A stretch of DNA of 42,529 bases from Bacilli bacterium. Its GTDB lineage: Bacteria > Bacillota_I > Bacilli_A > RF39 > UBA660. The notes under the pieces were generated by a model. That model saw only the letters and a program-made list of their open reading frames with translations. It did no database searches and had not been told where the DNA came from. The stretch is taken from positions 1 through 42,529 of the forward strand of contig CAKJXT010000021.1 in NCBI GenBank assembly GCA_918219625.1. The letters are read 5' to 3'. Shown one piece after another: positions 11,386 to 39,918 of the stretch. Every line of letters begins with the position of its first letter. Positions within the stretch are counted from its first letter, which is position 1. The position numbers and the translations under genes are program-made.

Positions 11386-13785
11386 TTATTTAACAACAAT
11401 ATTAACAAGCTTACCAGGAACAACTATTTCATTAACAATCTTCATACCATCAATATAAGCTTTAACATTGTCAATCTCTTTAGCAATACTAAGCATCTCT
11501 TCACGACTTGTATCAGTAGAAACCTCTATCTTACCCCTAATCTTACCATTAACTTGAACAACCATTTCATAAGTATCATTAACAATCTTAGAATCATCAT
11601 ATGATGGCCACTTACTATTAGCAAGCTCATCACCTAGAGAACAAACTTCATTAATCTCTTCAGTAAGATGCGGAGCATATGGATTAAGAATTTGAATAAG
11701 AGTTCTATAATCTTTTCTACTAATTGACTCTAACTCATCCATCTTATTAACAAGAATCATTAAAGCACTAACACCAGTATTATAATCAAGACTCATAATA
11801 TCATCAGTAACCTTCTTAATTGTTTGATTCATCAATACTTCTATATCTTTAGTATATTCCATACTATCATTTAACTTATCTTGAAGTCTCCATACACGGT
11901 CCAAGAACTTACTACATCCCTTAAGACCATTTTCATTCCAAGCAGCATCCTTAGAATAATCTCCAATAAACATTTCATAAGTACGAAGAGCATCAGCACC
12001 ATATTCATTAACCATATCATTAGGGTTAACAACATTACCTTTACTCTTACTCATCTTCTCGCCATTAGAAGCAAGAATCATACCATGCGCAATTCTTTCA
12101 AGGAATGGTTCACTATAAGGAACTATACCTTGTTCATGTAAGAATATATTCCAGAATCTAGCATAAAGTAAATGTCTTGTAGCATGTTCCATACCACCAT
12201 CATAAAGATCAACTTGACCCCAATACTTAAGAGCCTCTTCACTAGCAATCGCATTATCATTATGTGGATCCATATATCTTAACCAATACCATGAAGAACC
12301 AGCCCAGTTAGGCATTGTATCAGTTTCACGTTCTGCTTTACCACCGCAAGATGGACAAGTACAATTAACAAACTCCTCTATATTAGCAAGTGGACTCTCA
12401 CCTGTTTCAGTTGGTTCATAAGACTCAACATTAGGTAAAACTATAGGTAATTCATTCTCTGGAACTGGAACCCATCCACACTTATCACAATGAATCATTG
12501 GAATAGGTTCACCCCAGAATCTTTGACGAGAGAAAATCCAATCTTGTAGACGATAATTAACTTTACGAGTTCCAATATTTTTATTTTCAAGATAATCAAT
12601 CATTTTATTAATAGCGTCTTCTTTATTCATACCATTAAGAACTTCAGAATTAATATGAACACCATCACCAACATAAGCTTCCTTAGAAATATCCCCACCT
12701 TCTATAACAGGAATAATATCAATACCAAACTTTTTAGCAAAAGCATAATCTCTTTCATCATGTGCAGGAACAGCCATAATCGCACCTGTACCATATGTAG
12801 AAAGAACATAATCAGCAACCCATATTGGAAGAAGTTTACCATTAACAGGATTTACAGCTTTAATACCCTCAATTAAAACACCAGTTTTCTCACGAGTATT
12901 ATCAGTTCTTTCGATTTCAGACTTGCCACGAGCTTCCTCTTGATAAGAACTAATCTCATCTATATTAGAAATCTTATCTTTATATTTTTCTAACATTTCA
13001 TGCTCTGGACTGATAACCATAAATGTTGCGCCATACAAAGTATCACATCTAGTAGTAAATACCTCTAGATAATCATCAAGTCCATCTAACTTAAATTTAA
13101 CAGAAGCACCTTCACTTCTACCAATCCAATTAATTTGAGCAGTCTTAACCTTATCCAAAAATTTAGTATCAGGAAGACCAGCAATCAATTTGTCAGCATA
13201 ATCACTCATTCTAAGAACCCATTGATTCTTAAGCTTTTTAGTAGTCTTTGCGCCACATCTTTCACAAACACCACCCTCAGCATCCTCATTAGAAAGACCT
13301 GTCTTACAATTAGGACACCAATTGATTTCCTTCTCTGCTTTATAAGCTAAACCAGCTTTATAAAATTGTAAAAATTGCCATTGAGTCAATTTATAATATT
13401 CTGGATCAGTTGTAGAAAACTCACGCGACCAATCAACAGAAAGACCTAACATCTTCATCTGATCCTTAAACACTTTACTATTTCTTACAACAACTTCTGA
13501 TGGATGAATATGATTCTTAATCGCATACTGTTCAGCAGGAGAACCAAATGCATCCCATCCCATTGGGAATAACACATTATATCCTAAAGCCCTTCTAAAT
13601 CTCGCTTGAACATCACTTGCTGTATAAACACGAGCATGCCCAACATGAAGACCTGAACCTGATGGATAAGGAAACTCAACCAACATATAAAACTTTTTCT
13701 TAGAATGATCTAATTCAACTTTAAAAGTTTCTTTATCATCCCAATATTTTTGCCACTTTTTATCAATATCTTTAAAATTATACAT
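11386..13785 (-). CDS. leuS: Leucyl-tRNA synthetase
   Basis: The product is 799 aa, the normal length for a bacterial class Ia LeuRS. It charges tRNA-Leu. Visible are the HIGH-type motif HVGHARVY in FPYPSGSGLHVGHARVY (about residues 38-55), a zinc-binding pair (CPNCKTGLSN with CERCGAKT), the CP1 editing region (about 220-410, with TYGTGAIMAVPAHDERDYAF), a second Cys cluster (CDKCGW, CTCPSCGGK) and the KMSKS loop EKMSKSKGNVVN (about 575-590). The C-terminal anticodon domain ends in the usual KIRGKIEV and VPGKLVNIVV. ATG 13785 follows GAGGGAT. It overlaps the preceding small membrane-protein gene by 8 nt (ATGTATAA), so the two are coupled and both lie behind the T-box at 14144-14345. Confidence 0.97.
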   Translation of the reverse strand: MYNFKDIDKKWQKYWDDKETFKVELDHSKKKFYMLVEFPYPSGSGLHVGHARVYTASDVQARFRRALGYNVLFPMGWDAFGSPAEQYAIKNHIHPSEVVVRNSKVFKDQMKMLGLSVDWSREFSTTDPEYYKLTQWQFLQFYKAGLAYKAEKEINWCPNCKTGLSNEDAEGGVCERCGAKTTKKLKNQWVLRMSDYADKLIAGLPDTKFLDKVKTAQINWIGRSEGASVKFKLDGLDDYLEVFTTRCDTLYGATFMVISPEHEMLEKYKDKISNIDEISSYQEEARGKSEIERTDNTREKTGVLIEGIKAVNPVNGKLLPIWVADYVLSTYGTGAIMAVPAHDERDYAFAKKFGIDIIPVIEGGDISKEAYVGDGVHINSEVLNGMNKEDAINKMIDYLENKNIGTRKVNYRLQDWIFSRQRFWGEPIPMIHCDKCGWVPVPENELPIVLPNVESYEPTETGESPLANIEEFVNCTCPSCGGKAERETDTMPNWAGSSWYWLRYMDPHNDNAIASEEALKYWGQVDLYDGGMEHATRHLLYARFWNIFLHEQGIVPYSEPFLERIAHGMILASNGEKMSKSKGNVVNPNDMVNEYGADALRTYEMFIGDYSKDAAWNENGLKGCSKFLDRVWRLQDKLNDSMEYTKDIEVLMNQTIKKVTDDIMSLDYNTGVSALMILVNKMDELESISRKDYRTLIQILNPYAPHLTEEINEVCSLGDELANSKWPSYDDSKIVNDTYEMVVQVNGKIRGKIEVSTDTSREEMLSIAKEIDNVKAYIDGMKIVNEIVVPGKLVNIVVK

Positions 13786-14131
13786 TTTTATCCCTCTTTC
13801 TAAAAAATAAACCTACAACCTTATAGACAACTAAAATAAGTACTATAAGAATTAAAAAACCTAACAACAAATTAATAATTAAATTATCAAAAACAAAAGA
13901 AATAGTAAAAGCGAATGTAATAGCTAAAATAAATGAATTGCAAATACTCAAAACTTGAATAAAAGATTTCTCATTAATATCCTTAATATCAAGCTTATTC
14001 AAATTAATAAAAATTGAAGCCTGATTTGTTTCAAATATTTTTTTATTTTTCTTTTTATTTAAAATAACAAAAAACAAATAAAACAAATACATAACAACAA
14101 ATGAAATTATAAACCATAACAAAAACTTAAT
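13778..14131 (-). CDS. Small three-helix membrane protein of unknown function, probable AUU start
   Basis: The product is about 117 aa with three hydrophobic segments (near residues 3-25, 55-80 and 82-108) separated by a short lysine-rich cytoplasmic loop; it ends in a basic tail (FFRKRDKNV). I do not recognise a family. No ATG, GTG or TTG in this frame sits at a proper distance from the strong site GGAGGTG. The first standard start is a TTG at 14122, 14 nt away, whereas an ATT at 14131-14129 has ideal spacing and gives a typical beginning, MKFLLWFIISF. It lies between the leucine-type T-box and leuS and overlaps leuS by 8 nt, so it is co-regulated with leuS. Its role is unknown. Confidence 0.65.
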   Translation of the reverse strand: MKFLLWFIISFVVMYLFYLFFVILNKKKNKKIFETNQASIFINLNKLDIKDINEKSFIQVLSICNSFILAITFAFTISFVFDNLIINLLLGFLILIVLILVVYKVVGLFFRKRDKNV

Positions 14132-14143
14132 ATTAACACCTCC

Positions 14144-14345
14144 AAAAAAAAATCCATGAACTTAAGGACTCCATAAGAGCGGTACCACCTTAATTCATAG
14201 ATTTCTATGCACTCATGATTTTAACGCTATCAGCGGATAATTCAACTCCAAAGTAAATTCATAAGCCGTAATTAAAAGTTTTCACCAACCACTTTTTCTC
14301 TAAATAATCCTAAGCCTATTACTACGCTTCTTCTCCGTTTTTAAT
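14144..14345 (-). promoter_or_regulatory. T-box riboswitch ahead of the leuS unit
   Basis: The minus strand shows TTAAGGTGGTACCG, then CTCTTATGGAG and CCTTAA (antiterminator with T-box bulge). A competing terminator pairs ATCTATGAATTAAGG with CCTTAAGTTCATGGAT and ends in nine T at 14144-14152. The stem I loop motif GGTTGGTGAAAACC-like is present. The only leucine codon placed sensibly on the 3' side of stem I is TTA at about 14254-14256 (within GAATTTACTTTGG), but it is not followed by the usual purine, so the specifier is tentative. Leucine specificity rests mainly on the downstream leuS. Confidence 0.87.
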
Positions 14346-31786: not shown

Positions 31787-33769
31787 CTACACTTGTTGAA
31801 TAGAATTATACATATTAAACATAGGAAGTACTATCGATAATACAATAATACCAACCATAGCTGTTAAGAATATAATCAAAGCAGGTTCAATAAATGTCTT
31901 AATTCTAGAAACCGAATTTTGATGTAACTCTTGATAATAAGCTGAAACTTTAGCCATCATTTCAGGAAGTTGTCCTGTACGCTCACCAGTAACTATCATT
32001 TCATAAGCAGGAATTGGAAAAGCCCAATGTCCTTCAAATTCAGAAGATAATCTTTCACCTCTAGCAAGATTAGTAACAGTATTAAATATCAAAGACTTAT
32101 AAATTTCATTTTGTGTAACCTTACTAAGAATTTCCATACTATCAGTAATATAAACATTATGAGCTAACAACGAAGAAAAAGTCTTAGTAAACATAGTTAC
32201 TTCTTTGTAAATTATAATTGTGCTAATAACCGGAATATGCATAAGTATCCATTGAATAATTGTTCTAAATGTCTTATTTTTCTTATAAACAAATCTAAAC
32301 AATAATATAAATGCTAAAACACCTAATCCTATAAATAAAATGTTCTTCTTCATAAAAGTACTCATATCAATTATAAATTTAGTAATTTTAGGAATTTCAA
32401 CACCATCCATAGAAGCATAAATATCTACAAACTTAGGAATAACATAAAGCATTATAAATGTCAAAACCGCAAGCGCAAAAATGAATACTATGGAAGGATA
32501 CATCATAGCCGTAATCATTTGCTTTCTAGTCTTTTCAGTTTCAGTAAAATAATCAGCCATATCATCCAAAACTTCTGGAAGTTCACCAGTCATTTCTGAA
32601 GACTTAACCATTGTTATTAACAAATTAGGAAAAGCTACACCTCTATTTTCCATAGCTGTACTTAAGTTCTCACCCATAGAAAGATCATATATAATCATCT
32701 TAAATATTTTTTTATAAGTCCTTTTCTTATATTGTCTAGACAATATTTTTAAAGACTCAATAAGAGTAATACCAGACTTTAAATAAGTGGATAATTGAGT
32801 AACAAAGAAAATCAAATCTTTTGTTTTAATCTTTACCTTATTAGAACCAGTAGACCCATATAAAGCTTGAATCAATTTATTAGTTCTAATACTATAAACT
32901 TCATAACCTTCACTTAGCAAATATGAATGTATTTCAACCTTAGAATAACCATCAGCATGACCTTTAATAATCTTGCCATCTTTATCCTTAACAACATATT
33001 CATACATTACTTTAACATCACTACGTTCTGCTTCCTTACCCTCAAATTCGATAAGTAAAGCTTTTCTATTCATATCAAGTTTATTTCTTTTATTCTTTGC
33101 AAAACTTGTATTATTCCATTTATCACGTATTGACTTCATAATTTTATCAGGCAATTCTTTTAAATTTCTAATAAAATTATTAAATTTATCAGTAAAAGTA
33201 AGCTTATTAATAGTCACACTATCGCTCTCTTTATGACGTTTCTTAGTAGTAGCTTTTAAACTTTTCTTTAAATCTTCCTCTTCTCTTTTCTCCTTAACAA
33301 TCTTTGCCTTAGCTTTAGTTTCCAACTTCGCTAATCTAGCCTCTTGCTTTAATTTTTTTCTCTCATCAATCTTTTTTGATTTCCTCTGAGCAGCCAAACT
33401 TTTCTTTCTCTCAAGTCGATTTTTTCGTTTCATAGCGGCTCTTTCTTTTCTCTCTATCTTTTTTCGTTTTCTTTCCTCTATTTTAGCAAGTCTAGCATTT
33501 TCCCTATCAATTTTACGTTGTTTTTTCTTATTAATTCTTTCTTGTCTCAACTCTTCTTTTCTAATTCGAGCAGCCTCTTTTTGCTCAATTTCTAATTGTT
33601 TTTTCTTTTCTCTACTAACAATACTCTTAGTCTTTTTAGAAAGAATATTTATATCCTCACTACGAAAAAATGGCTTGAAAATAACCCTTACGCCTTTGTT
33701 AACATATTTAGACATTAAAAGTAACCCTTTATAGACGTACACACAAAAACGAATCACCAATTTGGTCAT
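31787..33769 (-). CDS. pilC: Type IV pilus/type II secretion platform protein (PilC/GspF/ComGB) with basic coiled-coil N-terminal extension
   Basis: The C-terminal 400 residues are a normal GspF/PilC protein: a VMYEYVVKDKDGKIIKGHAD opening, two T2SSF domains with LSTYLKSGITLIESLKILSR and GERLSSEFEGHWAFPIPAYE, three membrane helices, and a final TFIEPALIIFLTAMVG. It is the inner membrane platform for pilin assembly. Before it lie about 260 extra residues, of which about 130 are almost purely Lys, Arg, Glu, Ala and Gln, predicted as a long charged helix. The start is uncertain: ATG 33769 is the cleaner choice, GTG 33790 the longest frame. It forms a unit with pilD (stop and AGGAGG overlap). Confidence 0.85.
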   Translation of the reverse strand: MTKLVIRFCVYVYKGLLLMSKYVNKGVRVIFKPFFRSEDINILSKKTKSIVSREKKKQLEIEQKEAARIRKEELRQERINKKKQRKIDRENARLAKIEERKRKKIERKERAAMKRKNRLERKKSLAAQRKSKKIDERKKLKQEARLAKLETKAKAKIVKEKREEEDLKKSLKATTKKRHKESDSVTINKLTFTDKFNNFIRNLKELPDKIMKSIRDKWNNTSFAKNKRNKLDMNRKALLIEFEGKEAERSDVKVMYEYVVKDKDGKIIKGHADGYSKVEIHSYLLSEGYEVYSIRTNKLIQALYGSTGSNKVKIKTKDLIFFVTQLSTYLKSGITLIESLKILSRQYKKRTYKKIFKMIIYDLSMGENLSTAMENRGVAFPNLLITMVKSSEMTGELPEVLDDMADYFTETEKTRKQMITAMMYPSIVFIFALAVLTFIMLYVIPKFVDIYASMDGVEIPKITKFIIDMSTFMKKNILFIGLGVLAFILLFRFVYKKNKTFRTIIQWILMHIPVISTIIIYKEVTMFTKTFSSLLAHNVYITDSMEILSKVTQNEIYKSLIFNTVTNLARGERLSSEFEGHWAFPIPAYEMIVTGERTGQLPEMMAKVSAYYQELHQNSVSRIKTFIEPALIIFLTAMVGIIVLSIVLPMFNMYNSIQQV

Positions 33770-33806
33770 ACAAGTATCACTTCCATCCACCTTATCATAT
33801 ATCTCA

Positions 33807-35936: not shown

Positions 35937-37662
35937 ACAATCTCTCCTGTTCCTTCATCTTTAACTCAACTATTTTTTTGCCTATTTCAAGTTTCTTAAA
36001 CTTATCTGTTTCATTTCTTTGTTCTTTTTGTAATCTAGAAATTTCGTTCTTAATATTATAATCTCTTATTGTAAAAATGCAATCCTTAATATCCTTTTTA
36101 GTACATTTATCAGGTAAATCCAAACTAAGAATTTCACTAACAACCTCTTTCATGCCCTCAAACTCATATAAATAAGTAATTAAATCGGCTACTTTTACAA
36201 ATCCATGTTCCTTGTAAAAACAACTTATATAAGTAGATAACTTTCTAAATTTATCATTAGGCATATATGTAACTTCTTTATCATACATCTCTACAGCAAA
36301 ATCATAATTAAACATGTAATATATTAACCACATTTGAGCTTTATCATACATATCAATTTCTTTTTTTTCTTTAACAACTGGTTTTACTTCCTTTACCTCT
36401 TCTACAGAAGTTAACCTGTCCCTTAAAAACTCTATATCCAATTTAGACTCTTCACTAAGTTTTTTTAAAGAAATCTCAACTAATGTTTCATCATCAATCT
36501 TTCTTAATGCCTCAATAACAGAATTAACATAATTAGCAGCATCTACACTACTATTTAAATCCTTATTATTTTTTAGATATGATAACTTAAAATCCATAAC
36601 ATTAATAGGATTATCTAATAAATCATTAAATCTATCCTTGCCATACTTTAAAATATATTCATCTGGATCTAGATTCTCAGGAAGTCTAACTATCTTAGGT
36701 GATATGTTATACTGAAGCAATAAATCAGAACAACTCAAAGTCGCATGAGCCCCTGCTTCATCACCATCAAATAGAAGTATAACATCACGAGCAAGCTTTC
36801 TAATTAACTTAACATGATCCTTTGTAAACGCTGTACCCATTGCCGCAACAACATTAGTAATACCAACAGAATGAAGCCTTATTACATCCATAAAACCTTC
36901 TGTAATAATAACAACATTCTTTTTACGACAAGACTCTTTAGCTCTATGATAATTATAAAGCATTTCACCTTTTTTAAAGATTGCAGTTTCTCGAGTATTT
37001 ATATACTTAGAAGTATCCTCACCATTATAAATACGTCCACTATAACCAACAATCTTACCAGCAACATCATACAAAGGAAACATTATACGATTTATATATA
37101 TGTCACTAAGGCCATAATCATTCCGAACAATAAGTCCACTATCTAACATATCCTTCTCTGAAAAATTCTTCTTAACAAGTAATCGTGTTAATAAATCTCG
37201 TTCCTTTAAAGAAAGACCAATATCAAACTCACGAATAAGTTCATCGGTAATCCCACGCTTGTGCAAATACTCTTTAGCGCCAACTCCATAACTAGTATTT
37301 AAATTATTAATATATAATTTGCTAGAAACATCATAAATATCATATAAATTCTTATTAACCTCTTTATGACTACTCTTAATATTAATACCATTAATACTAA
37401 TACCAGTAATATCAGATAAAATCTTTAAAGCTTCCGGAAAACTAACATTTTCATAATCCATAACAAAATTAAAAACATTTCCAGTAGCGCCACAAGAAAA
37501 ACATTTATAAATTTGTTTATCCTTAGAAACACTCATACTAGGAGAATGATCATCATGAAATGGACAAACTCCAAAATAATTTTTTCCACGAGCAACAAGT
37601 GGAACATATTTAGATATAACATCAACAATATCAATACTATTTCTTATCTCATTAATATCCAC
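35929..37662 (-). CDS. dnaG: DNA primase
   Basis: The product is 577 aa. It makes RNA primers at the fork. The N-terminal CHC2 zinc domain has [20 protein letters not shown] then [14 protein letters not shown] (about residues 33-65). The TOPRIM core has [14 protein letters not shown] with the catalytic Glu and [11 protein letters not shown] with the Asp pair. The C-terminal 150 residues should bind DnaB-type helicase. GTG at 37662 is the start, with GGTGGTGAT just upstream. It is the first gene of the macromolecular synthesis operon dnaG-sigA-trmK. I could not find a clean promoter between 37663 and 37740. Confidence 0.96.
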
Positions 37663-37814
37663 TATATCACCACCAAAAAAAGCCTACATAATTAATATAC
37701 GACAAAACTTTTAAAATTCCTTAATATTTTACAAAAAAATTGATAAAAAATCAAAATTTTTATTAAAAATAAGAATAAAAATCAATTTTCAACATAAAAT
37801 AGCCACTTCAAAAG

Positions 37815-37843
37815 TTGATTTATAATTAATTTTGTGCTATTAT
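37815..37843 (+). promoter_or_regulatory. Plus-strand promoter of the candidate antisense RNA
   Basis: TTGATT (37815-37820), a 17-nt spacer and TATTAT (37838-37843). It is directed at the terminator at 37926-37966. There is no protein gene on this strand, so it should make a short RNA. Confidence 0.65.
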
Positions 37844-37865
37844 GTATGTAGTGAAGCAATACTTC

Positions 37866-37913
37866 ATAAAATAAAAAAAGGATATGTCTGAAGTGGTTTT
37901 CAGATGTATTCCT
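37866..37913 (-). terminator. Terminator of the minus-strand peptide transcript
   Basis: The hairpin AGGAATACATCTGAA / TTCAGACATATCCT (37879-37913) has a 5-nt loop and is followed on the minus strand by TTTTTTTATTTT. On the plus strand the same hairpin has no T run. Confidence 0.75.
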
Positions 37914-37925
37914 CAGTTTAGTGTA

Positions 37926-37966
37926 ACATCTGAAATCAACATTAGTTGAAATCAGATGTGTTTTTT
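37926..37966 (+). terminator. Terminator of the plus-strand small RNA
   Basis: ACATCTGA / TCAGATGT (8 bp) and TCAAC / GTTGA (5 bp) stack around a symmetric AA/AA loop, capped by ATTA and followed by G and six T. The T run overlaps the stop codon of the peptide gene on the other strand. Confidence 0.85.
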
Positions 37967-38042
37967 ATATAAATAATAATTTGATAATTATTATAAATAA
38001 AAGTAGTATTATTATAAAATATGAATTTTCTCTATTAGTCAT
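37965..38042 (-). CDS. 25-aa hydrophobic peptide, candidate type I toxin
   Basis: The ATG at 38042 is preceded by AAAGGCGGTGG at about 5 nt. The product starts MTNRENSYF and continues as a near-continuous stretch of Ile, Leu and Phe with one Lys (about residues 10-25), i.e. a single short membrane helix. Upstream is a near-consensus promoter; its transcript would begin with a hairpin, and a second stem (CCTTTC at 38072-38067 with GAAAGG at 38058-38053) would hide part of the ribosome site. Downstream the message overlaps a convergent small RNA. Length, composition and layout match type I toxins such as those of the Fst, TxpA and Ibs groups, but I see no sequence match to any of them. Confidence 0.6.
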   Translation of the reverse strand: MTNRENSYFIIILLLFIIIIKLLFI

Positions 38043-38103
38043 AATACCACCGCCTTTCTCTTTCAAGAAAGGAACCATCTGATTTTCAAACATATCCATA
38101 TCA

Positions 38104-38133
38104 ATTTTAACATTTAATTAAATTAACTGTCAA
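38104..38133 (-). promoter_or_regulatory. Strong promoter of the hydrophobic peptide gene
   Basis: Minus strand: perfect TTGACA (38128-38133), an 18-nt spacer, TAAAAT (38104-38109) with upstream TGT. The predicted start (about 38097) begins the RNA with GGAUAUG, at the outer end of an inverted repeat shared with the facing RNA. Confidence 0.75.
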
Positions 38134-38146
38134 TTATTTTTGTTAA

Positions 38147-38178
38147 CAAAAAGTAAAAAGAGGCTAATACCTCTTTTT
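38147..38178 (-). terminator. Terminator after thrS
   Basis: The minus strand has AAAAAGAGG, a 6-nt loop, CCTCTTTTT (38170-38178 and 38155-38163), then T-rich sequence. It overlaps the thrS stop. Confidence 0.88.
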
Positions 38179-39918
38179 ATTTTTAATATCATTAACAATC
38201 ATTGAAACAAACTCATTTTTATCCATGCTAGTAGTTTCATTAGAACCATGTAATCTATAACTTACTAAATTACCATCTCTTTCCTTATCACCAATAATGA
38301 TAGTATAAGGAATTTTTTTAGTTTGACTTTCTCTCATCTTATAAGATAATTTTTCATCTCTAGAATCAAGACTTACACGAATATCATTATCCTCAAATAA
38401 TTTCTTAAGTTCCATGCAATAATCTAAATGATATTCATTATTAACTGGAATAATATTAAGTTGAACAGGACTTAACCATAATGGTAAAACACCTTTAGTT
38501 TCTTCTAGATAATAAGCAATAAATCTGTCAATTGAACCAAATACAGCTCTGTGAATTACAACAGGAGTCTTCTTAGAACCATCAGCGTCTACATACTTCA
38601 AATCAAACTTAGCTGGTAAACAGAAATCCAATTGACAAGTTGATAATGTAATCTCATTACCAACAGCTGGTTTAACTTGAACATCTAACTTAGGTCCATA
38701 GAATGCAGCTTCACCTGTTTTTTCAACATAATCAATACCCAAATCATTTAAAACTTGTCTTAACATGTTTTCAGCTTTATTCCACATAAGATCATCTTGA
38801 TGATACTTAACCTTATCCTCTGGATCACGAAGAGATAGTTCAAATCTATAATTACTAATACCTAATTCTTTATAGCACTCCAAAATTAAATCAACAACGC
38901 CCTTAAACTCAGATTCAACTTGATCAAGAGTACAGAAAATATGACAGTCATTTTGACAGAAAGTTCTAACTCTTTCAATTCCCTTTAAAGAACCACTTGA
39001 TTCATATCTACAATCACGAGCAATTTCAGCAATTCTAATAGGTAAATCTCTATAAGAATGTATTTCATTTCCATAAATAACCATGTGATGAGGACAATTC
39101 ATTGGTCTTAAAACAAACTCTTCACCCTCAACCTCCATTTTAGGAAACATATCATCACGATAATGATCCCAGTGACCACTTGTCTTATAAAGTTCAACAT
39201 TACCTAGAGGTGGAGTTTGAACATGTAAATAACCACGTTTTAACTCTTTATTTCTTATATAATTTTCTAATTGATTCCACAATAAGAAACCATTAGGTAA
39301 ATACATAGGAAGACCTCTACCTACTAAATCACTCATCATATAAATTCCTAAATCTTTACCAATCTTACGATGATCTCTTTCCTTAGCCTCTTCTAAAGCC
39401 TTTAAATAATTATCCAAATCCTCTTGATTGTTAAAACAAACACCATAAATTCTTTGAAGAACTTTATTATTAGAATCTCCCTTATAATAAGCTCCGCTTA
39501 CTTTAATAAGCTTAAAATACTTCATAGACTTAGTAGTTGGCATATGTGGTCCTCTACACAAATCAACAAAATCATCTTGACGATATGCTGATATAATAGA
39601 ACCATCCTCTAACTCATTTATAATATCAACTTTATATGGATCATCCTTAAACATATCTAAAGCTTCATCACGAGATAACTCTAATCTAACAATTCTCTTA
39701 TCACTCTTAGAAATTTTCTTCATTTCTCTTTCAATAGGTTCTAAATCATCAACAGTTAAAGACTTATCTCCTAAATCAATATCATAATAAAAACCATCAT
39801 CAATAACTGGTCCAACCCAGAACTTAGCATCTGGATATAAATGCTTAACAGCATGAGCAAGTAAATGCGCACAACTATGATTAAGTACATTCAACTCTTC
39901 ATTTTCTTTAATATTCAT
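38164..39918 (-). CDS. thrS: Threonyl-tRNA synthetase lacking the TGS domain
   Basis: The product is 584 aa. It charges tRNA-Thr. It begins directly in the N2 editing domain (NVLNHSCAHLLAHAVKHLYP, carrying the HxxxH metal site), followed by the linker with DLCRGPHMP, the class II catalytic core (FVLRPMNCPHHMVIYG, RIAEIARDCRYESSGSL) with zinc-binding Cys and His residues, and the C-terminal anticodon domain. The usual N-terminal TGS (about 60 aa) is absent; even the longest frame (to 39948) adds only 10 residues. ATG 39918 is chosen for AAAGGAGAG at 6 nt. A threonine T-box lies upstream, which supports the call. Confidence 0.95.
   Translation of the reverse strand: MNIKENEELNVLNHSCAHLLAHAVKHLYPDAKFWVGPVIDDGFYYDIDLGDKSLTVDDLEPIEREMKKISKSDKRIVRLELSRDEALDMFKDDPYKVDIINELEDGSIISAYRQDDFVDLCRGPHMPTTKSMKYFKLIKVSGAYYKGDSNNKVLQRIYGVCFNNQEDLDNYLKALEEAKERDHRKIGKDLGIYMMSDLVGRGLPMYLPNGFLLWNQLENYIRNKELKRGYLHVQTPPLGNVELYKTSGHWDHYRDDMFPKMEVEGEEFVLRPMNCPHHMVIYGNEIHSYRDLPIRIAEIARDCRYESSGSLKGIERVRTFCQNDCHIFCTLDQVESEFKGVVDLILECYKELGISNYRFELSLRDPEDKVKYHQDDLMWNKAENMLRQVLNDLGIDYVEKTGEAAFYGPKLDVQVKPAVGNEITLSTCQLDFCLPAKFDLKYVDADGSKKTPVVIHRAVFGSIDRFIAYYLEETKGVLPLWLSPVQLNIIPVNNEYHLDYCMELKKLFEDNDIRVSLDSRDEKLSYKMRESQTKKIPYTIIIGDKERDGNLVSYRLHGSNETTSMDKNEFVSMIVNDIKNKKRY

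Follow-up and report, generated by a model that had tools for sequence, protein, structure and literature searches.

Two predicted, facing transcription units between thrS and dnaG

In the window, which is the whole 42,529-nt stretch of DNA analysed here, thrS ends at 38164 and dnaG starts at 37662. A terminator-like hairpin stands at the thrS end (38179-38154), so a short peptide gene found between the two should have its own transcript. The interval carries the following features.

38128..38133, minus strand: -35 element TTGACA of the peptide mRNA promoter (sequence reading; family A promoter scoring)
38104..38109, minus strand: -10 element TAAAAT, TG-extended, of the same promoter (sequence reading; family A scoring)
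37868..38097, minus strand: predicted peptide mRNA of ~230 nt, its ends placed from the promoter and a T-run
38076..38097, minus strand: 5′ leader arms GGATATGTTTGAA and ATCAGATG, whose complement lies in the 3′ part of the same mRNA (fold; family covariation)
38053..38072, minus strand: local hairpin CCTTTCTT-GAAA-GAGAAAGG, which occludes the ribosome site in the predicted fold
38050..38057, minus strand: ribosome site AAAGGCGG (sequence reading)
37965..38042, minus strand: 25-codon ORF MTNRENSYFIIILLLFIIIIKLLFI and stop (ATG at 38042-38040; the stop ends at 37965)
37926..37959, no strand assigned: hairpin H1, which together with the T-run 37960-37967 on the plus strand would terminate the antisense RNA (a 39-row alignment has 81.4% of cells paired)
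37880..37912, no strand assigned: hairpin H2, with the minus-strand T-run 37879-37867 the presumed mRNA terminator, and the partner of the leader (88.6% of cells paired)
37815..37820, plus strand: -35 element TTGATT of the antisense promoter (sequence reading; family A scoring)
37838..37843, plus strand: -10 element TATTAT, TG-extended, of the antisense promoter (sequence reading; family A scoring)
37852..37866, plus strand: 5′ stem-loop TGAAG-CAATA-CTTCA of the antisense RNA (sequence reading; fold)
37850..37967, plus strand: predicted antisense (antitoxin) RNA of ~118 nt with likewise estimated ends, overlapping the mRNA at 37868-37967

The minus-strand promoter has a spacer of 18 nt that includes the TG. 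With the RNA ends so placed, the mRNA and the antisense RNA would overlap tail to tail by about 100 nt. The initial annotation had described a TTGACA/TAAAAT promoter with a 25-aa peptide gene and a ribosome site on the minus strand and a facing TTGATT/TATTAT promoter for a short RNA on the plus strand, and all of these are present in the sequence. The hairpin terminators that it put on each strand inside the other unit are there too with their T-runs, and the 97-nt overlap that it gave is close to ours. Its pairing of CCTTTC with the ribosome site recurs in the predicted fold of the window, as 38072-38065 with 38060-38053.

Taken alone, the promoter hexamers are at chance level, with 8 promoter-like sites in 37500-38400 versus 8.3 in shuffled sequence, and a simple terminator scan finds the thrS terminator 38179-38154 only, missing both hairpins of the locus. 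An upstream start of the peptide ORF at 38094 (44 codons in the window) was rejected, as the extension is lost in the relatives examined by eye.

Elsewhere in the window, a T-box leader at 14161-14344 on the minus strand (Rfam RF00230, 112 bits) lies upstream of two ORFs, a 114-aa membrane-like one at 13778-14122 and a second one at 11386-13785 that we take to be leucyl-tRNA synthetase-like. A 667-aa ORF at 31787-33790 on the minus strand has a very long Lys/Arg/Glu-rich N-terminal stretch and then a membrane part, presumably PilC/GspF-like.

A family often present in several copies per genome

Relatives of the window were reached via DnaG, giving 17 loci of 31-56% identity, 12 of them in MAGs labelled Bacilli or Tenericutes. 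The vicinity of dnaG is without the element in these 17 loci, except for one 30-nt match in L006. Conservation is the strongest sign that the locus is more than a chance arrangement. By blastn, 7 of 14 related genomes have matches to it with E below 1e-20, at 70-75% identity and spanning at least some two thirds of the query. Several copies can reside in a genome: G007 has four, G008 has three, and G009 carries a tandem array. Further tandem arrays occur at L039, L090, L093 and L071.

In an order-wide search with another copy of this kind, here called type A, 181 of 288 genomes have a match at E<=1e-6, some of them to the shared antitoxin end only. The order sampled is, as we assume, the RF39 group of gut Bacilli. 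In a class-wide search with the type A copy, 27 of 395 genomes match and 26 of them were already in the order sample, which suggests that the family is confined to one order, as far as the type A query reaches. As only 2 to 5 candidates per genome were scored in either search, their numbers are not copy counts. The reading of the locus in the initial annotation as a type I toxin-antitoxin locus thus holds in kind, with the frame and the promoters kept, while the single copy seen there turns out to be one of a multi-copy family.

From 83 non-identical type A elements, 67 were kept and 16 that were partial, at an edge or decayed were dropped, including L038 and L040. Alignment A2 drew on the 40 of the 67 that are under 90% identical, of which 39 were used and L088 was left out. 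For type B, described below, 24 elements were kept and 16 dropped (9 partial, 6 identical, 1 edge), and for type C 25 were kept and 5 dropped (3 partial, 1 identical, 1 edge).

Further predicted toxin types under one antitoxin frame

Of 14 places examined that have a short match to the tail and antisense promoter, a script finds a short hydrophobic ORF upstream in 11, two of which (L111 and L114) look irregular. The other three (L106, L107 and L117) retain the antitoxin promoter and tail, the script finding no toxin ORF, and are candidate relics or orphan antisense RNAs. Two types emerge beside type A. A type B copy with the 30-aa peptide MKTKTFILKVLKLITIILFLLIIMIVVIKK matches 99 of 146 genomes of the order and a type C copy with the 27-aa peptide MNKKDFLILSLVIIIFLLLFLLFIVLI matches 93 of 146, both counts including cross-matches through the shared end. 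The ORF is present in 21 of 24 type B and in all 25 type C elements.

Ten genomes, chosen for having several matches, hold 99 antitoxin ends (modules) at 3 to 18 per genome, a range that is not an average of the order. A short hydrophobic ORF lies upstream in 70 of the 99 modules, compared with 0.8% of shuffles (16 of 1980) and 3 of 99 modules when the opposite strand is read; 67 of the 70 ORFs start 147-174 nt ahead of the module start. Three of the 29 ORF-less modules have too little upstream DNA, leaving 26 antitoxin ends without an ORF among the 96 with enough. Such ends, together with decayed copies, are expected if the toxin is lost while the antitoxin stays.

By a simple rule, the 70 modules sort into 25 of type C, 20 of type B, 13 of type A, 8 of type D with peptides like MRKSEKYLCTIIILLIIVILIILIKIVPTV, and 4 of type E with peptides like MKKKDLLISFLILIIILLIVSVMILCIKK. 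The leader of type E resembles that of type B, from which type E may have branched off. Four to five divergent types of predicted toxin thus share one antitoxin-promoter frame.

In its antitoxin-promoter segment, a module resembles those of other types in the same genome (likeness 0.648) more than those of its own type in other genomes (0.577), a difference reached by none of 1000 label permutations over the 70 modules and 10 genomes. The pattern suggests homogenisation, or toxins being exchanged under a common antitoxin promoter; alternatively, the promoter may be tuned to each host's polymerase. Toxin exchange has a precedent: according to an excerpt of PMC6562991, the toxin of bsrG-like loci can be another one in other species of Bacillus. 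We give about even chances to a model in which one module of antitoxin promoter and 5′ stem-loop serves exchangeable toxins, each bringing its own matched leader and tail.

Conservation of the promoters and the peptide

At a threshold of at least 9 of 12 positions, the type A sense promoter is found in 54 of 67 elements (0.25 when shuffled) and the antisense promoter in 61 of 66 (0.32 when shuffled). Their places are fixed as well: the best sense -10 ends 5-6 nt ahead of the aligned mRNA start in 60 of 67, and in 58 of 66 the best antisense -10 lies 23-24 nt away from the end of the mRNA. The expectation in the initial annotation that homologues would keep both promoters is thereby borne out for family A. 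At the same 9/12, type B has the sense promoter in only 12 of 20 and the antisense one in 21 of 21, and type C has them in 22 of 23 and 20 of 23, respectively. The antisense 5′ ends of many relatives show, by eye, a stem-loop CAAG-GAAA-CTTG or GAAG-...-CTTC in the same place.

A block like ATACAAGTGTGTTTTCTAAATTGACAA also appears by eye to be conserved 50-70 nt before the sense -10 in types A, B and C. Examples are L036, L051, L114 and L116, and a small hairpin often precedes it. In L022, such a block comes directly after the antisense -35 of the preceding copy. It is a candidate regulator site or insulating terminator.

The commonest residues of the type A peptide are MTKREFSQFIIILLLFLVVIILLLK, a short basic head followed by ~16 hydrophobic residues and a terminal Lys. 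From this hydrophobicity, the 25-aa peptide is predicted to be a single-span membrane peptide. A script finds the ORF in 64 of the 67 chosen type A elements, counting the frameshifted L032 (24 aa) and missing L063, which is scored intact elsewhere, and the ORF is exactly 25 aa in 54 of 67. In the remaining two misses, the frame of L029 is shifted and L031 has lost its ATG. Decayed copies of type A comprise frameshifts (L029, L032), a lost ATG (L031) and deletions (L038, L040).

The ORF of type A is under purifying, coding selection. Over 50 distinct 25-aa ORFs, to which this sample was limited, dN/dS pooled over non-independent pairs is 0.206, and pooled pN/pS is 0.295 in frame versus 0.572 and 1.738 in the two shifted frames. 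Diversity by codon position, with the start excluded, is 0.211, 0.109 and 0.324, an excess at the third position. The frame, whose breakage in homologues would have spoken against the initial annotation, is hence kept in 64 of 67 family A elements at a pooled dN/dS of 0.21. The peptide was also said there to match no known toxin, and it does lack any Pfam or NCBIfam match above the cut-off, as do the other peptides tried.

A selected membrane peptide need not be a toxin. It could be a regulated small membrane protein, such as a stress or envelope factor, whose amount is limited by the antisense RNA, and purifying selection on the ORFs suits this as well, while toxicity has been judged here from the sequence alone. 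Type I toxins, though, typically show divergent paralogues, tandem arrays, layered repression and decayed copies. The present loci resemble them in all of these, with divergent paralogues in one small genome; the repression features of such toxins are described in an excerpt of PMC6562991. A harmless membrane protein is accordingly unlikely, if the strongest of the competing explanations.

The mRNA leader pairs with its own tail

The predicted minus-strand RNA folds at -70.6 kcal/mol (z -9.7), a value reached by none of 200 shuffles, and the plus-strand RNA at -36.6 kcal/mol (z -5.7). In the consensus structure from RNAalifold over 39 divergent type A elements, the 5′ leader pairs with the 3′ tail, and 18 of 29 pairs have changes on both sides. 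Over the 22 leader-tail pairs counted on 39 rows, 96.7% of 856 cells are paired and 16 of the 22 pairs have changes on both sides; none of 500 shuffles reaches any of the five measures. Sliding lowers the paired cells to 25-45%. One pair splits evenly into C-G in 15 and U-A in 15. These counts come from rows that are related rather than independent and from the same alignment that gave the consensus structure.

The local helices have 81.9% of cells paired and changes on both sides in 19 of 35 pairs. On four of five measures these local hairpins exceed every one of the 500 shuffles; on the remaining one, the count of further pair types, 163 of 500 shuffles do as well. Weakest among the local helices is the ribosome-site hairpin, at 70.7% of cells paired in fixed columns. 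No RNA feature of the locus is better supported than the complementarity of leader and tail.

Folding models assign the occlusion of the ribosome site to the local hairpin. The unpaired probability of the site is below 0.3 in 32 of 38 full-length elements, and it is still below 0.3 in 37 of 38 when the tail is removed. The site stays closed without the tail, so an aapA-like activation by tail trimming is unsupported, and hiding the ribosome site is probably not the role of the leader-tail pair. That pair may instead mask the 5′ end, make the RNA more stable or offer the tail to the antisense RNA.

The leader-tail pairing is kept in types B and C, whose leaders and tails are unlike those of type A, as seen in alignments that carry no shuffle control; 3 type B and 2 type C elements were further left out of folding for ill-set or shifted 5′ ends. 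The leader-tail duplexes are stronger than shuffles, with fewer than 5 of 100 reaching them, in 62 of the 67 modules tested. In this test, the leader was placed by the best -10, the shuffles were mononucleotide ones, and two type E modules and one type C module with an unusable leader or tail were left out.

The same complementarity could arise at the DNA level. Leader and tail would then be the terminal inverted repeats of a small mobile repeat of the MITE kind, and the ORF and the promoters would be passengers. Such an origin would suit the inverted-repeat ends, the several dispersed copies per genome, the tandem arrays and the lack of the element near dnaG in the 17 dnaG loci, the 30-nt match apart. 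The pairing exceptions point the other way. The type A leader-tail cells are 755 Watson-Crick, 73 G.U, 16 A.C and 12 other, and this excess of G.U over A.C on the sense strand indicates selection on the sense RNA, since a DNA inverted repeat would give the two equally. The long-range pairs of types B and C lean likewise, with G.U:A.C of 46:5 and 19:2. Moreover, the ORF is under purifying selection and the conserved promoters stand outside the repeats.

Among 20 neighbouring proteins scanned, 17 have a Pfam match and none is of a transposase or phage family. The type A copy has no match at E<=1e-3 in phage and plasmid collections, the window locus has short matches only (E 0.08 or worse) in such collections, and the exact antitoxin motif is not found in viral contigs. 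On balance, a mobile repeat with passenger genes is quite improbable.

Palindromes of the form ACTCGAA...TTCGAGT downstream of some copies were tried as element borders and rejected. They adjoin tRNA-like sequence facing the element (L058, L068, L109), so they are read as tRNA terminators. These three copies lie just past the 3′ end of the facing tRNA-like gene, the tRNA being confirmed at L109.

The very strong RNA structure might speak for a pair of structured non-coding RNAs in which the ORF arose by chance. This is hardly credible given the dN/dS of 0.21, the third-position excess, the fixed 25 aa in 54 of 67, the presence of the ORF in 21 of 24 elements of type B and all 25 of type C, and the ORF rule, which holds in 70 of 99 modules but in 16 of 1980 shuffles and, with the opposite strand read, in 3 of 99.

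Relation to known type I systems

Two features of a type I system are found here. One is a gene for a short hydrophobic peptide that has a promoter and a ribosome site of its own, seen in the sequence and its conservation; the other is an antisense RNA gene, also with its own promoter and complementary to the predicted toxin mRNA, indicated by the sequence and the conserved promoter. In this respect, the locus is like Fst/par and hok/sok, which combine a short membrane toxin with an antisense RNA. The Fst and Hok models give nothing above the cut-off, the nearest being HokA with one type C peptide (E 0.12, 12.4 bits versus 89). The type A consensus peptide has no PDB match.

The nearest layout is that of txpA/RatA, bsrG/SR4 and bsrE/SR5 of Bacillus subtilis, with a small membrane peptide, a convergent overlap at the 3′ ends and an occluded ribosome site. 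Peptides of this txpA/bsrG type in B. subtilis have roughly 30-60 aa. Those here have 25-30 aa and are without sequence match to them, and the leader and the tail here are complementary over about 30 nt, unlike in txpA, bsrG and bsrE. An excerpt of PMC6562991 describes for the txpA/bsrG type a small membrane peptide, an antisense overlap of 100-140 bp at the mRNA 3′ end and an occluded ribosome site, and an excerpt of PMC3531473 gives about 120 nt of overlap and RNase III for this kind of locus. The convergent 3′-3′ overlap here is about 100 nt from the estimated ends, and types B and C have a similar layout.

The B. subtilis txpA, bsrG and bsrE loci are on prophages or prophage-like elements according to the same excerpt of PMC6562991, whereas the elements here lie beside housekeeping or uncharacterised genes, as seen from 20 neighbours scanned. 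No homology to the TxpA/BsrG family is found in peptide or RNA. Rfam has no family above the threshold over the window element or the loci tried. Its sole near-match is that of the BsrG model to the type C locus L118, at 21.1 bits versus a gathering score of 55, the same locus appearing in two scans as 1 of 5 and 1 of 14 loci.

The fold-back of the mRNA recalls aapA/IsoA of Helicobacter pylori, set beside the present family by description for its several chromosomal copies and its 5′-3′ pairing. Both the chromosomal copies and a full-length mRNA with a 5′-3′ long-distance interaction are reported in an excerpt of PMC6733600. Such an interaction is present here by covariation, controlled by shuffling in type A. 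The long-distance pair of aapA hides the ribosome site and trimming of the tail opens it; in our folding models the pair does not itself occlude the site, and a separate local hairpin hides it instead. Fold-back inhibition in the hok mRNA is a comparable idea.

By description, the locus is also like the Clostridioides difficile pairs (CD2517.1-RCd8 and others), being a convergent overlapping toxin and antitoxin in Firmicutes, although the lineage differs. An excerpt of PMC6563280 presents those pairs as convergent and overlapping, with toxins lacking homology to known ones. The present loci are txpA/bsrG-like in layout with a somewhat aapA-like 5′-3′ pairing added, and by sequence they belong, as far as tested, to none of these families. 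Among publications on type I systems in Mollicutes, RF39, Tenericutes, gut metagenomes or MAGs, none describes the family in its title or at the start of its abstract, with most subscription journals and all preprints outside the scope of the search.

Proposed identity and mechanism

We consider it highly probable that the locus belongs to a new, multi-copy superfamily of chromosomal type I toxin-antitoxin systems. Its transcription, toxicity, antisense control and fold-back role are what we infer from the sequence. The basic-hydrophobic 25-aa peptide probably inserts in the cytoplasmic membrane and would be harmful if overproduced. The primary mRNA would be nearly silent, with its ribosome site in the local hairpin and its 5′ leader paired to its own tail; of this, the leader-tail pairing itself is demonstrated by covariation.

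The convergent antisense RNA, made from its own promoter, would match the final ~100 nt of the mRNA by complementarity. The two would form a long duplex there, most likely cut by RNase III as judged by likeness to RatA/txpA and SR4/bsrG. A drop in antisense supply or processing of the mRNA would then let the peptide be made.

Type I systems appear narrowly spread, which an excerpt of PMC12390103 ascribes to searching by likeness to known ones; before a cyanobacterial case, according to the same excerpt, they were known only from Proteobacteria, Firmicutes and Tenericutes. The present family appears common across the small-genome Bacilli of its order, yet it is unnamed in the protein and RNA libraries searched. 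Genes of 25-30 aa can thus be missed by annotation yet be common in a lineage.

If the model of exchangeable toxins is true, an antitoxin promoter tuned to its host would see one toxin cassette replaced by another, and this exchange would help explain up to 18 modules per genome of 1.1-1.4 Mb. The family lets one ask how many cognate antisense pairs coexist per cell, and it also suits asking whether toxins swap under a shared antitoxin promoter. Its dozens of covarying natural variants offer a test of how a 5′-3′ fold-back controls a toxin mRNA.
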